DNA from: Hymenobacter sp. 15J16-1T3B
GTDB lineage: Bacteria; Bacteroidota; Bacteroidia; Cytophagales; Hymenobacteraceae
Length of the DNA: 64,000 nt
NCBI RefSeq assembly: GCF_020711235.1
Contig: NZ_JAJFAV010000017.1
Span: 62,001-126,000 of the forward strand
Direction of reading: 5' to 3'
The translations under genes were made by a program, and so were the position numbers. Below the pieces are notes generated by a model, which was not told the origin of the DNA, searched no databases, and worked only from the letters and a program-made list of their open reading frames with translations. Shown one piece after another: positions 38,182 through 40,965 of the stretch (position 1 is its first letter; each line of letters begins with the position of its first letter).

Positions 38182-38878
38182 TTAAGCGGGGTGGAAGATT
38201 GGTGCGGAGGCGCCCGCAGCCACCGGGCGCGCGGCATCGGTCAGCCACAGCCAGGCGTAGTACAGCAGGCCGGCCACGCAGGCGCACTGAATGCTGGCGA
38301 GGCCCAGGCCGGGCAGCGGCGACGTGGGCTTGATGAATTCGACGAGCAGCCGAAACAGCAGGTAGGTGCTCAGCAGCCAAAAGAGGATTTCGAAGAGGTT
38401 GGTGGGGTGGCGCGGCCCGCCGTCGTCTAAGTCCAGGGCCCAGGGCAGGGCGCTGGCCGTGCCGTAGGTGCCGTCTTCGAGGCCGGCCAGCAAGCAGCCG
38501 GTGCGGCCGAGCCCCATGCCTAGGATGAGCGGGTACACCATCAAGTCGCCCGAGGAGGCCGTGTCGCCGAGGCGTTTCTTGGTCAGCTCCGCCCCCAGCA
38601 AGCCCCCCGAGGAAGCCGCCGACGATGGTATTGTTGGTAAAGTAGTACAGCGGCCCGTCCGGCGGGTGCTCCAGCAAGACCAGCACCCGGGAGCCCAGCA
38701 AGGCCCCGGCAGCGGCCTCGATGAAAATCCACAGCCGGTCGTCGCCGCTGATTCGGTCGGGCGCGCGGCGGCGCCGGTTGCCGTAGTAGCGGCAGCCCAC
38801 GGAGTACGCCAGCACCTCGAACACCAGGTGCGCGGGCAGGACGACGGGGCTGAGGTGCAGCTGAACGGGAAACGTCAC
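38182..38878 (-). pseudogene. Prolipoprotein diacylglyceryl transferase homologue with a frameshift
   Basis: The N-terminal ~90 residues start at GTG 38878 just after a TAACTTG box and include LYYFTNNTIVGGFLGG. The rest, LLGAELTKKRLGD, MGLGRTGCLLAGLEDGTYG and RHPTNLFEILFWLLS, lies one frame over, in the order of an Lgt-family protein (the canonical signature is GRIGNFxNG). The switch falls at a run of six C on the plus strand (38603-38608); five would restore one frame. Lgt is normally essential, so this would be a paralogue or a sequencing error. Start and frame break are inferred from the pattern. Confidence 0.7.
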
Positions 38879-38917
38879 GGCGGGCAAGTTAGGCAGCCGC
38901 CCGCAACCGCCGCGCAC

Positions 38918-38951
38918 AAAAAAGCGCCCCGCCGGCTTTCCGACGGGGCGC
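38918..38951 (-). terminator. Intrinsic terminator of the phenylalanine hydroxylase gene
   Basis: GCGCCCCG (38924-38931) pairs with CGGGGCGC (38944-38951). Read on the minus strand six T follow. Confidence 0.8.
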
Positions 38952-38968: not shown

Positions 38969-39712
38969 CTAGACCTCCACTCCCACCGCGGCCGCCCGCA
39001 GCTGGCGTTGCACCTCGGGCAGGGTATCGAAGAGCTGATCCAGCGAGTCGAGCACGAAGTAGTCGGTCTGGAACACGTCCTTGCGGAAGGCGGTACCGAG
39101 CACGGTTTCGACGCCGAAGGAATGGCGCCGCGGCTCGGGGCCGAGGCTGTAGCGCGTCTCGCCGGCCGAGGACAAAATGCCCGCCCCGTAGATGCGCGCC
39201 TGCCCGCTGCCCGCGTCGCGGATCAGGCCGAACTCCACCGTAAACCAGTACAGCCGCGCCAGCAGCTCCACGGCGGCCGGGTCGGCGGCGTGGCGCAGGC
39301 CGATGTGGCCGAGTTGGTGCAGAAAGCGGGCAAAAGCCGGGTTGGTCAGCAGCGGCACGTGGCCGAACACGTCGTGGAACATGTCGGGTTCTTCGAGGTA
39401 ATCCAGCTCGGCGAGCTTGCGCAGCCAAGTGGTGGCCGGAAACTGCCGGGCGGCCAGCAGCCCGAAAAACACCGCGTCGTCGACGATGCCGGGTACGGCC
39501 ACCAGCTCCCAGCCGGTGAGGCGGCGCAGCACCTGGTTGGTCTGGCGGAAGTCGGGAATCCGGTCGGCGGTGAAGCCGATGCGGGCCAGGCCTTCCATGA
39601 ATTCGGGCGCGGCGCGGCCGGGCAGGGCTTGGAGCTGGCGTTCGAAGAGCAGCTGCCATACGTGGCGGTCCTCGGCGGTGTACTGGTCGTAGTGTTGTTG
39701 GAGCAGGGTCAT
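38969..39712 (-). CDS. phhA: Phenylalanine 4-hydroxylase (aromatic amino acid hydroxylase)
   Basis: 247 residues. Converts phenylalanine to tyrosine with oxygen and a pterin cofactor, using a non-haem iron held by a 2-His-1-Glu triad: His113 and His118 in MFHDVFGHVPLL, Glu160 in WFTVEFGL. The core FRQTNQVLRRLTGWELVAVPG and the C-terminal YGAGILSSAGE agree with the bacterial family. ATG 39712 is set by the family start MTLLQQHYDQYTAED. The frame is open upstream to 39964 but has no homology there and would run through the terminator. Expression is probably governed by the leader region at 39735-39936. Confidence 0.92.
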   Translation of the reverse strand: MTLLQQHYDQYTAEDRHVWQLLFERQLQALPGRAAPEFMEGLARIGFTADRIPDFRQTNQVLRRLTGWELVAVPGIVDDAVFFGLLAARQFPATTWLRKLAELDYLEEPDMFHDVFGHVPLLTNPAFARFLHQLGHIGLRHAADPAAVELLARLYWFTVEFGLIRDAGSGQARIYGAGILSSAGETRYSLGPEPRRHSFGVETVLGTAFRKDVFQTDYFVLDSLDQLFDTLPEVQRQLRAAAVGVEV

Positions 39713-39734
39713 GGCTCTGGAAGTTGGAAGAGGT

Positions 39735-39773
39735 GAAAAACAAAAAGCCCCTCTCCGGCTATCGGAGAGGGGC
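39735..39773 (-). terminator. Attenuator-type intrinsic terminator in the phhA leader
   Basis: GCCCCTCTCCG (39747-39757) and CGGAGAGGGGC (39763-39773) form a perfect 11-bp stem with a five-base loop. On the minus strand the tail is TTTTTGTTTTTC. It lies 23 bases before the phhA ATG and 29 bases after the leader-peptide stop, so it can end transcription before the structural gene. Confidence 0.85.
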
Positions 39774-39801
39774 GAGTATGAAGCGGTTCCTGGCGGCGAC
39801 C

Positions 39802-39903
39802 TTACGTCGTCTGCTCGGGTGCCGTCGCACATACACGACCACTGCCGAAGCCGGTGGGCTGGCAGGAGCGGTAATAATAGCGCGACGAAAAGCGGGTGAG
39901 CAT
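39802..39903 (-). CDS. Leader peptide of the phhA attenuator
   Basis: A 33-codon frame that begins ATG at 39903 and ends TAA at 39802-39804. The start reads MLTRFSSRYYYRSC, followed by further residues including a second Phe; it has three consecutive Tyr codons (TAT TAT TAC) at codons 9-11 and Phe at codon 5. The ATG is four bases after a CATCTTTG box, and a strong terminator lies between it and phhA. This is the layout of amino-acid attenuation leaders (trp, phe, his). The product of phhA is tyrosine, so stalling at Tyr codons under Tyr shortage would be a sensible signal. The direction of control and the antiterminator are not shown by eye. Confidence 0.7.
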   Translation of the reverse strand: MLTRFSSRYYYRSCQPTGFGSGRVCATAPEQTT

Positions 39904-39907
39904 GGGG

Positions 39908-39936
39908 CAAAGATGGGAGTTTTTTCGGCAACGCAA
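39908..39936 (-). promoter_or_regulatory. Promoter of the phhA leader transcript
   Basis: On the minus strand TTG (39936-39934), 18 bases, then CATCTTTG (39915-39908), a -33/-7 pair of the Bacteroidota type with one mismatch. The spacing to the leader ATG is four bases, so the leader would be read from a leaderless mRNA. Confidence 0.6.
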
Positions 39937-40143
39937 GCCGTCGGCAGTGGGCAAGCGGTGCCAACCGTCCGCCGGGCAGCGGTTACCGCTCGGCGTTTGC
40001 GGCGGCCAACGGCCCGGGCAGGGGGGTCATCAGTTCAGGTTGGCGTCAGCCGGGCGCGCGGCTCTTAATCTGGACGAATTAGCTGCATAAGTCTTAGCTT
40101 GTCAACCATTTGTTCGGGAGTTACCGCTAGCCCACCCTATGCT

Positions 40144-40965
40144 ATGAGTGCCATCCACCACCCCGTGCATCCGCGCCTGCGCGCCGCGGTGAGCCACATC
40201 ATGACCGTGGACCTGCAGCTGCCCGGGCCGGCGTACGGCCGGAGCGCGCCGTTTCCGCCCACGCCCCAGCACAGCCTGAACTTCTACCCCGGCGACGCCA
40301 CCCGCAGCCGGACCGGCCACCAGGCGTTTGCGGATCTGCCCGCCTGCGCCATCATCGGCCCGCAGACGACCAAGGTCGATTTGGCCATGGGCAGCCACCA
40401 CCGCTTTGTGACGGTGGCCTTTCACCCCGGCGGGCTGCACCGGCTGCTGCGCCTGCCCATGCCCGAGCTGCTCGACCAACCGCTCGACGCGGCCGATGTG
40501 CTGGGCCGCGAGCTGCGCGAGGTGACCGAGCAACTGCGGGAGGCCCGGCAGCCGCTGGCCATGAAAAATATCGTGGAGGCCTACCTCTTGCGCAAGCTGG
40601 CTGACCGCGTGGCCAGTCCGCTGGAGCGCAGCCTCGGGCTGCTGCTCCGGGGCAATCCTGCCGATTCTGTGGAGAACATAGCCGCGCTGTCGTGCCTGAG
40701 CCTGCGGCAGTTCGAGCGCCGCAGCCGGGAAATCCTCGGCTACTCGCCCAAGTTCTTCGCCCGGGTCGCGCGCTTCTCCAGGGCCTACCGGCTGAAGGTG
40801 CGGCAGCCCGAGTGCACCTGGACCGTCATCAGCCACCACTGCGGCTACTACGACCAGATGCACCTGATCCGGGATTTCAAGGAATTTACGGGCACCACGC
40901 CCTCGCGCATCACCCGGGAAATCCTGGCCGCGCCGCTGACCTTGCAGGACGATCTGCGGATTTAG
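40144..40965 (+). CDS. AraC-family transcriptional regulator
   Basis: 273 residues. The N-terminal ~160 residues (HPRLRAAVSHIMTVDLQLPG, IIGPQTTKVDL, VTVAFHPGGLHRLLRLPMPEL) look like the DUF6597 ligand or oligomerisation domain. The C-terminal AraC domain has two helix-turn-helix parts, VENIAALSCLSLRQFERRSREILGYSPKFF and VISHHCGYYDQMHLIRDFKEFTGTTPS. Its targets are unknown. It is divergent from the phhA leader promoter by about 210 bases, so a link with phhA is possible but unproven. The intergenic stretch 39937-40143 shows nothing else. ATG 40144 is preferred to one at 40099. Confidence 0.85.
   Translation: MSAIHHPVHPRLRAAVSHIMTVDLQLPGPAYGRSAPFPPTPQHSLNFYPGDATRSRTGHQAFADLPACAIIGPQTTKVDLAMGSHHRFVTVAFHPGGLHRLLRLPMPELLDQPLDAADVLGRELREVTEQLREARQPLAMKNIVEAYLLRKLADRVASPLERSLGLLLRGNPADSVENIAALSCLSLRQFERRSREILGYSPKFFARVARFSRAYRLKVRQPECTWTVISHHCGYYDQMHLIRDFKEFTGTTPSRITREILAAPLTLQDDLRI

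Follow-up and report, generated by a model that had tools for sequence, protein, structure and literature searches.

The window, that is, the whole stretch of 64,000 nucleotides analysed here, comes from Hymenobacter sp. 15J16-1T3B (contig NZ_JAJFAV010000017.1, positions 62,001 to 126,000). On its minus strand lies phhA, a gene for phenylalanine 4-hydroxylase, which is preceded by a short open reading frame and an intrinsic terminator. The phhA product scores 288.9 bits against TIGR01267 (phenylalanine 4-monooxygenase), above the cut-off of 264.75, and this supports the gene identity given in a preliminary description of this DNA. The features, read 5' to 3' on the minus strand, are as follows.

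39934-39936, minus strand: TTG, -33 element (sequence reading).
39908-39915, minus strand: CATCTTTG, -7 element, with the leader ATG 4 bases further on.
39802-39903, minus strand: leader ORF of 33 codons, MLTRFSSRYYYRSCQPTGFGSGRVCATAPEQTT, conserved in 8/8 genomes of the window genus and in Hymenobacter gummosus (L039).
39880-39887, minus strand: segment 1, which forms the 5' arm of the competing (1:2) hairpin when the free RNA or the stop-codon state is folded.
39871-39879, minus strand: putative control codons Tyr9-Tyr11, TAT TAT TAC (sequence).
39830-39848, minus strand: predicted antiterminator segment A, UCGGCAGUGGUCGUGUAUG, overlapping the 1:2 hairpin (stall fold of L001).
39823-39830, minus strand: segment 2b, 3' arm of the 1:2 hairpin (folding, genus alignment).
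39762-39780, minus strand: predicted antiterminator segment B, CAUACUCGCCCCUCUCCGA, including the entire terminator 5' arm (folding).
39747-39773, minus strand: intrinsic terminator with a perfect 11-bp stem and a 5-nt loop, -23.8 kcal/mol (terminator prediction).
39737-39746, minus strand: T-rich terminator tail of ten bases, TTTTTGTTTT (sequence).
38969-39712, minus strand: phhA, phenylalanine 4-hydroxylase, 247 aa, the presumed controlled gene (TIGR01267, PF00351).
38924-38951, minus strand: terminator-like hairpin 3' of phhA (terminator prediction).

The TTG, which we take to be the -33 element of a Bacteroidota-type promoter, is separated from CATCTTTG by 18 bases of minus-strand sequence (39936-39934 to 39915-39908). 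Thus, the promoter described earlier, TTG-N18-CATCTTTG followed after four bases by an ATG, is borne out on the minus strand. In nine leaders of the window genus, CATCTTTG, CATCTTTA or CATATTTA stands exactly four bases ahead of the ATG; the spacing of the TTG is not constant among the upstream sequences of relatives (e.g., L002). Family-wide, TTTG or TTTA occurs 3-9 nt ahead of the leader ATG in 52 of 96 cases, compared with 102 of 573 when all ATGs of the same regions are taken. The leader encodes Phe at codons 5 and 19 and, as the 33-codon frame had been read before, Tyr at codons 9-11. It ends with TAA, and the perfect 11-bp stem with its T-rich tail was confirmed. The order of stop codon, stem and phhA given in the preliminary description stands, but both of its distances are one base short of or beyond ours: the stop codon is 28 nt from the stem rather than 29, and the phhA ATG at 39712 lies 24 nt past the ten-base tail rather than 23 (34 nt past the stem). 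Because a terminator-like hairpin comes after phhA, the transcription unit looks monocistronic. Further on, an lgt-like gene (38182-38917, minus strand) is apparently split over two frames near 38580-38600, with a PF01790 match in 38182-38601; this is either a sequence error or a broken gene. On the other side, an AraC-family regulator with a DUF6597 domain is encoded divergently on the plus strand (40144-40965) and starts roughly 240 bases away from the start codon of the leader. No near copies of the leader were found elsewhere in its own genome; besides the query site, a search with the leader returned one short match to the terminator part (E 2.7e-4) and nine matches with E >0.2. A T-box riboswitch or other Rfam cis-regulator was rejected as a candidate, as the best of four weak matches in 39600-40100 reached 20.4 bits against a gathering score of 65.

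Homologues of phhA were found in 132 of 150 family genomes. We read 198 phhA upstream regions, namely 118 regions, eight of which belong to second paralogues of the genus, plus 80 picked from match lists. The rule demanded an ATG-initiated frame 10-60 codons long that contained at least three Tyr in nine residues, with a terminator of -10 kcal/mol or better nearby. The rule was passed by 111 of the 198 regions, near-duplicates included, by none of 594 dinucleotide shuffles and by none of the 198 reverse strands; 96 leaders remained when each sequence was counted once and its terminator had to reach -10 kcal/mol. Relatives that pass have three to seven Tyr per nine residues, and the window locus has three Tyr codons. 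The Tyr leader is present in all eight genomes of the window genus, and leader and terminator also occur together at loci named Hymenobacter, Pontibacter, Roseivirga, Marivirga, Fulvivirga, Echinicola and Litoribacter. In genus g3, the leader was found in 39 of 40 regions among the 80 chosen, the exception being L128. A phylum-wide search for phhA matched 97 of 296 genomes; among 20 regions from high in this match list, three had at least three Tyr in nine residues (L181, L183, L187), two had a related His/Tyr form (L182, L184) and 15 were without any. Family phhA loci without a Tyr leader include L026, L027, L168 and L180. The preliminary description had been prepared to abandon its reading if frame and terminator proved unconserved in relatives; the counts in the genus (8/8) and among the 198 regions reveal that both are conserved.

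The leaders differ in form. His and Tyr codons are mixed in the leaders of Roseivirga, Litoribacter, Echinicola, Algoriphagus and further relatives, e.g., TYHSYSHYH and TYVHHSYHFL (L045, L050, L053-L056, L064, L067, L098, L102, L105, L118, L181-L184). Many Pontibacter-like leaders (L121-L160, L071, L088, L089, L100) are long, up to 57 codons and more, and the long ones have a conserved N-terminal part like MHxPAAIATxxLP ahead of the Tyr-rich stretch. In the window genus, the Tyr run comprises three to five codons. TAT makes up 25 of the 37 Tyr codons in these runs, compared with 29 of 402 when 39 long ORFs from the window are counted, and rare control codons are known in other attenuators.

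No clear antiterminator pairing with the terminator stem had been seen in the preliminary description. Here, segment A was found to be complementary to the 5' side of the terminator, and its duplex with segment B has a calculated energy of -14.7 kcal/mol. In many lineages, a segment about 8-18 bases past the last Tyr codon is likewise complementary to the terminator 5' arm and loop. Pairing of the leader with the terminator 5' side beat 95% of shuffles in 32 and 99% in 15 of 54 non-redundant leaders, which were obtained from 65 by removing duplicates and L070 (segment too short). When terminators were permuted among 62 leaders with distinct terminators, the mean duplex energy was -12.4 (SD 0.36), compared with -15.8 for cognate pairs, and none of 10,000 permutations was as good as the cognate arrangement, an advantage that could come partly from shared lineage composition. 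Double-centred residuals also favour cognate leader/terminator pairs. No terminator bound better than a leader's own in 3 of 62 cases, and the own terminator ranked within the best tenth in 20. In the window genus alone, the antiterminator duplex was not better than shuffles (p 0.15-0.39 in eight sequences, 0.85 in L039). The statistical support for the putative antiterminator is cross-lineage and does not come from the window genus alone.

Among nine genus sequences, no compensatory pairs were found for the antiterminator at fixed alignment columns: 13 of 15 pairs are invariant, and the two that vary only break, one in four and the other in one of the nine sequences. A one-base register shift restores complementarity at the first of these pairs. 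With a one-base shift, the variable leader dinucleotide AG/AC/AU stands opposite CU/GU/AU of the terminator arm in L001/L005/L006, respectively. When four genus leaders were swapped, L005 and L006 bound their own terminator best, and L001 and L039 bound another better. In stall folds, the antiterminator helix appears in seven of the nine sequences and as a variant in L039, and it is absent in L004. An antiterminator that would exclude the terminator is thus predicted across lineages and, by folding, in these seven sequences of the genus.

Besides the antiterminator, segment A can take part in another structure. The 8-bp pairing of 39880-39887 with 39823-39830 had been pointed out before; it is predicted by folding, is conserved in the genus, and constitutes the competing 1:2 hairpin. 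This pairing (39887-39880/39830-39823) closes a long hairpin at its base, with the Tyr codons and segment A inside, so the hairpin overlaps the control codons, a finding that covers the window genus only. An alternative pairing of 39823-39830 with 39796-39800, also proposed earlier, is not conserved in the genus alignment. In the nine genus sequences, 95.8% of the cells of the 1:2 hairpin are paired, and two pairs are altered on both sides (6 cells). The paired percentage, the number of double-change cells or the covariation score was reached by 2 of 500 shuffles; the number of pairs altered on both sides is not above shuffles, as 368 of 500 reach it. In folding, the 1:2 hairpin and the antiterminator are mutually exclusive.

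We folded the leaders with a stalled ribosome, as the preliminary description had recommended, using RNA cut ahead of the terminator 3' arm and blocking the ribosome footprint; the values below come from equilibrium folds with an assumed footprint. Mean antiterminator pairing in the 96 leaders was 0.55 with the ribosome stalled on the Tyr run, 0.23 with the ribosome at the stop codon and 0.29 in ribosome-free RNA. Stalled pairing exceeded that at the stop by more than 0.1 in 71 of 96 leaders, and the reverse was seen in none. Stalled pairing stayed below 0.2 in eight of these leaders, each of which has the Pontibacter-like YSYCLSVYSYYSYYYRYY form. In the genus profile (nine sequences), pairing reached 0.45-0.64 when the A site lay between the last-but-one Tyr codon and the fourth codon beyond the last, versus 0.19-0.30 before and 0.10-0.25 after this range. 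This suggests that a stall at the last Tyr codons or shortly past them favours the antiterminator in the window genus. In the average of the 96 leaders, every stall position between eight codons ahead of the last Tyr and one codon past it was permissive (0.48-0.54), those ahead of the Tyr run as much as those on it; pairing was 0.10-0.20 from three codons past the last Tyr and returned partially, to 0.31, about fifteen codons past it.

Taken together, these results point to control of phhA by ribosome-mediated transcription attenuation, with charged Tyr-tRNA as the signal, a reading to which we give a probability of about 0.86 on the strength of sequence comparison and modelling. After the comparison with relatives, control of phhA by the supply of Tyr-tRNA, as the preliminary description had supposed, is still the best reading in silico. 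Transcription probably begins at the leader ATG or within a few bases of it, and the leader would be translated. When charged Tyr-tRNA is ample, the ribosome would move past the Tyr codons and segment A would be covered by the ribosome or held in the 1:2 hairpin; with segment A unavailable, the terminator would form and phhA would not be transcribed. When charged Tyr-tRNA is scarce, the ribosome would stall at the Tyr codons and block the 1:2 hairpin, segment A would pair with segment B including the terminator 5' arm, and RNA polymerase would enter phhA. PhhA would then convert phenylalanine to tyrosine. Because a ribosome on the Tyr codons frees, in the model, the segment that pairs with the terminator 5' side, starvation is expected to turn phhA on. 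Read-through into phhA is the most likely outcome of Tyr-tRNA shortage, and folding thereby suggests a sign of control, which the preliminary description had left open.

The attenuator might be real and yet respond to a broader signal, such as generally slow translation, Phe, His together with Tyr, or queuosine in NAY-reading tRNAs. The mixed His and Tyr codons in the leaders of Roseivirga, Echinicola, Litoribacter and Algoriphagus would fit such a signal, as would the permissive stalls upstream of the Tyr run in the 96-leader average. In the window genus, however, Tyr is the sole run and lies directly ahead of segment A, and stalls well ahead of it do not favour the antiterminator in the genus profile. 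Phe codon 5 is not conserved in nine genus leaders; Phe codon 19 (in GFG) is conserved in the genus, but it sits in segment A, past the control position. A broader signal is therefore unlikely for the window locus, and sensing of charged Tyr-tRNA is preferred.

The short ORF could instead encode a small protein with a function of its own, the terminator being a simple constitutive dampener. The leader peptide does contain a stretch, CxPxGFGxGRVC, that is well conserved in the window genus, and Pontibacter-like leaders have their conserved N-terminal part; against this, the N- and C-terminal parts of the peptide vary in the genus. Changes at codon positions 1, 2 and 3 (21, 21 and 16 in the genus; 27, 23 and 37 in the g5 set; 47, 35 and 35 in the g3 set) are not decisive as evidence on leader coding. 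A count of synonymous changes on leaders with the motif YYAYAYY was discarded as circular, because the motif itself fixes the residues. L022 has a post-Tyr stretch similar to the one in L020 and L021, but in a different reading frame. Because it is kept across this frame change, the post-Tyr segment seems to be conserved at the RNA level and not at the peptide level. This, together with the cross-lineage complementarity of leaders to their cognate terminators, makes a small protein very improbable. A terminator of an upstream transcript next to a chance ORF hardly deserves credence, since nothing specific speaks for it, the gene on that side runs the opposite way, and the arrangement was seen in 0 of 594 shuffles and recurs from Hymenobacter to Roseivirga and Marivirga.

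The genus also has a second phhA, whose loci carry a different leader.

L038 (own genome, G000:C3:69712-70398 and upstream), L031-L037 and L169-L179: paralogue loci.
L009-L019, L023-L025 and L028-L030: paralogue loci, first tandem copies.

In a phhA tree, a single clade of 25 rows (support 100/99) unites the second phhA of the genus with the first tandem copies found in Hymenobacter-like genomes. Copies with a Tyr leader do not form one clade: six label changes are needed, with rows labelled 'other' including L064 and L074, which carry His/Tyr leaders with fewer Tyr, and the Tyr-leader copies of g5 adjoin the paralogue clade. None of 36 paralogue-class leaders (eight genus, 17 tandem and 11 single-copy loci, the last assigned by leader only) has a Tyr run, with at most two Tyr in nine residues. 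Because this class has none, the specificity of the Tyr run in the Tyr-leader class is supported. The consensus of the paralogue-class leaders is near MLxx[ST]AKCF...RP (K7 in 24, C8 in 21 and P16 in 21 of 36), and the types MLHQxIKCNF..V.P and MLNLTAKCF..NIRPV..VGLLC are followed by an antiterminator and a terminator. The antiterminator segment starts at ORF base 44-60 in 33 loci (leaving out L171, L175 and L178), and in the model, pairing stays at 0.65-0.73 through codon 15 and drops over codons 16-18. The paralogue leader is perhaps an arrest-peptide sensor. Tentatively, genomes of the Hymenobacter type might carry two phhA paralogues under differing leader-peptide switches, one answering Tyr-tRNA starvation for supply and the other using a conserved peptide, possibly arrested by a ligand such as phenylalanine, to induce a catabolic PhhA; we hold this to be possible but doubtful. 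If it is true, the second leader would be a new arrest peptide, and one enzyme would be divided between opposite nascent-chain or codon sensors.

A role of PhhA in tyrosine supply has been proposed elsewhere. In some defined media, phenylalanine hydroxylase (PAH) is important to Echinicola vietnamensis, and its part there has been proposed to be the synthesis of tyrosine (PMC7311316). We found the Tyr leader at two Echinicola loci of other species (L098, L102). Of 74 family genomes that carry the leader, 35 either lack tyrA (PF02153; no match in 29) or have a weak one (below cut-off in six); the corresponding number is 4 among 76 others (three without a match and one barely above cut-off, counted as weak; Fisher 1.6e-9, kinship uncorrected). 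These others comprise 18 genomes without phhA, 16 with an upstream region without a Tyr leader and 42 with upstream regions that were not read. Among the 35 tyrA-poor leader genomes, pheA (PF00800) is also missing in 26 and kept in nine; the one tyrA-less genome among the others that keeps pheA is 78% complete. In the 26, PhhA can therefore only convert phenylalanine that has been taken up. This weakens the idea that loss of tyrA means de novo synthesis by PhhA; in tyrA-poor leader genomes, PhhA would either complete tyrosine synthesis (nine) or make tyrosine from taken-up phenylalanine (26). The joint absence of tyrA and pheA in 26 of 74 Tyr-leader genomes suggests phenylalanine auxotrophs that make their own tyrosine. 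The window genome has both tyrA and pheA, so PhhA is not its sole route to tyrosine. In all eight genus genomes, 4-HPP dioxygenase is above cut-off, and an hmgA-like protein is found far under cut-off (57.8-67.1 bits versus 510.75), so that a breakdown route is plausible too.

Conserved peptides ahead of an antitermination decision are known from TnaC, the leader of the tna operon. The possible likeness concerns the leader of the paralogue only and not the Tyr leader of the window. The trp, his and phe leaders are examples of ribosome-mediated attenuators, and we know of no Tyr-run leader elsewhere. Such transcription attenuators of amino-acid biosynthetic operons have been described in general terms (PMC1183508). 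Like the classical attenuators, the phhA leader has a short ORF with codons for the end product and alternative antiterminator and terminator structures, and starvation is predicted to cause read-through. It is unlike them in its Tyr codons, its target phhA, its occurrence in Bacteroidota and a start codon that nearly coincides with the presumed 5' end of the transcript. In the same phylum, there are strong clues for leader-peptide attenuation ahead of amino-acid biosynthesis operons in Flavobacterium psychrophilum (PMC9723704), and short ORFs in long 5' UTRs of Bacteroides thetaiotaomicron are reminiscent of leader peptides (PMC7366714); the passages concerned name no phhA, Tyr leader or structure. 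The GapMind account proposes PAH as a tyrosine route in E. vietnamensis, Dyella japonica and Legionella pneumophila (PMC7311316), which agrees with the tyrosine-supplying enzyme proposed here, and regulation is outside the scope of the passage in question. By anatomy, the phhA leader belongs to the ribosome-mediated transcription attenuators; as a Tyr attenuator of phhA, with this amino acid and this target, it had no precedent that we found in the open-licence literature. If the reading is right, it would tell when phenylalanine hydroxylase serves supply and when it serves breakdown of aromatic amino acids, which annotation alone cannot, and the prediction is directly testable in culturable genera, e.g., Hymenobacter and Echinicola. 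It would also provide a worked structure for Bacteroidota, where we found only hints in print, and extend classical ribosome-mediated attenuation to phenylalanine hydroxylase and tyrosine.
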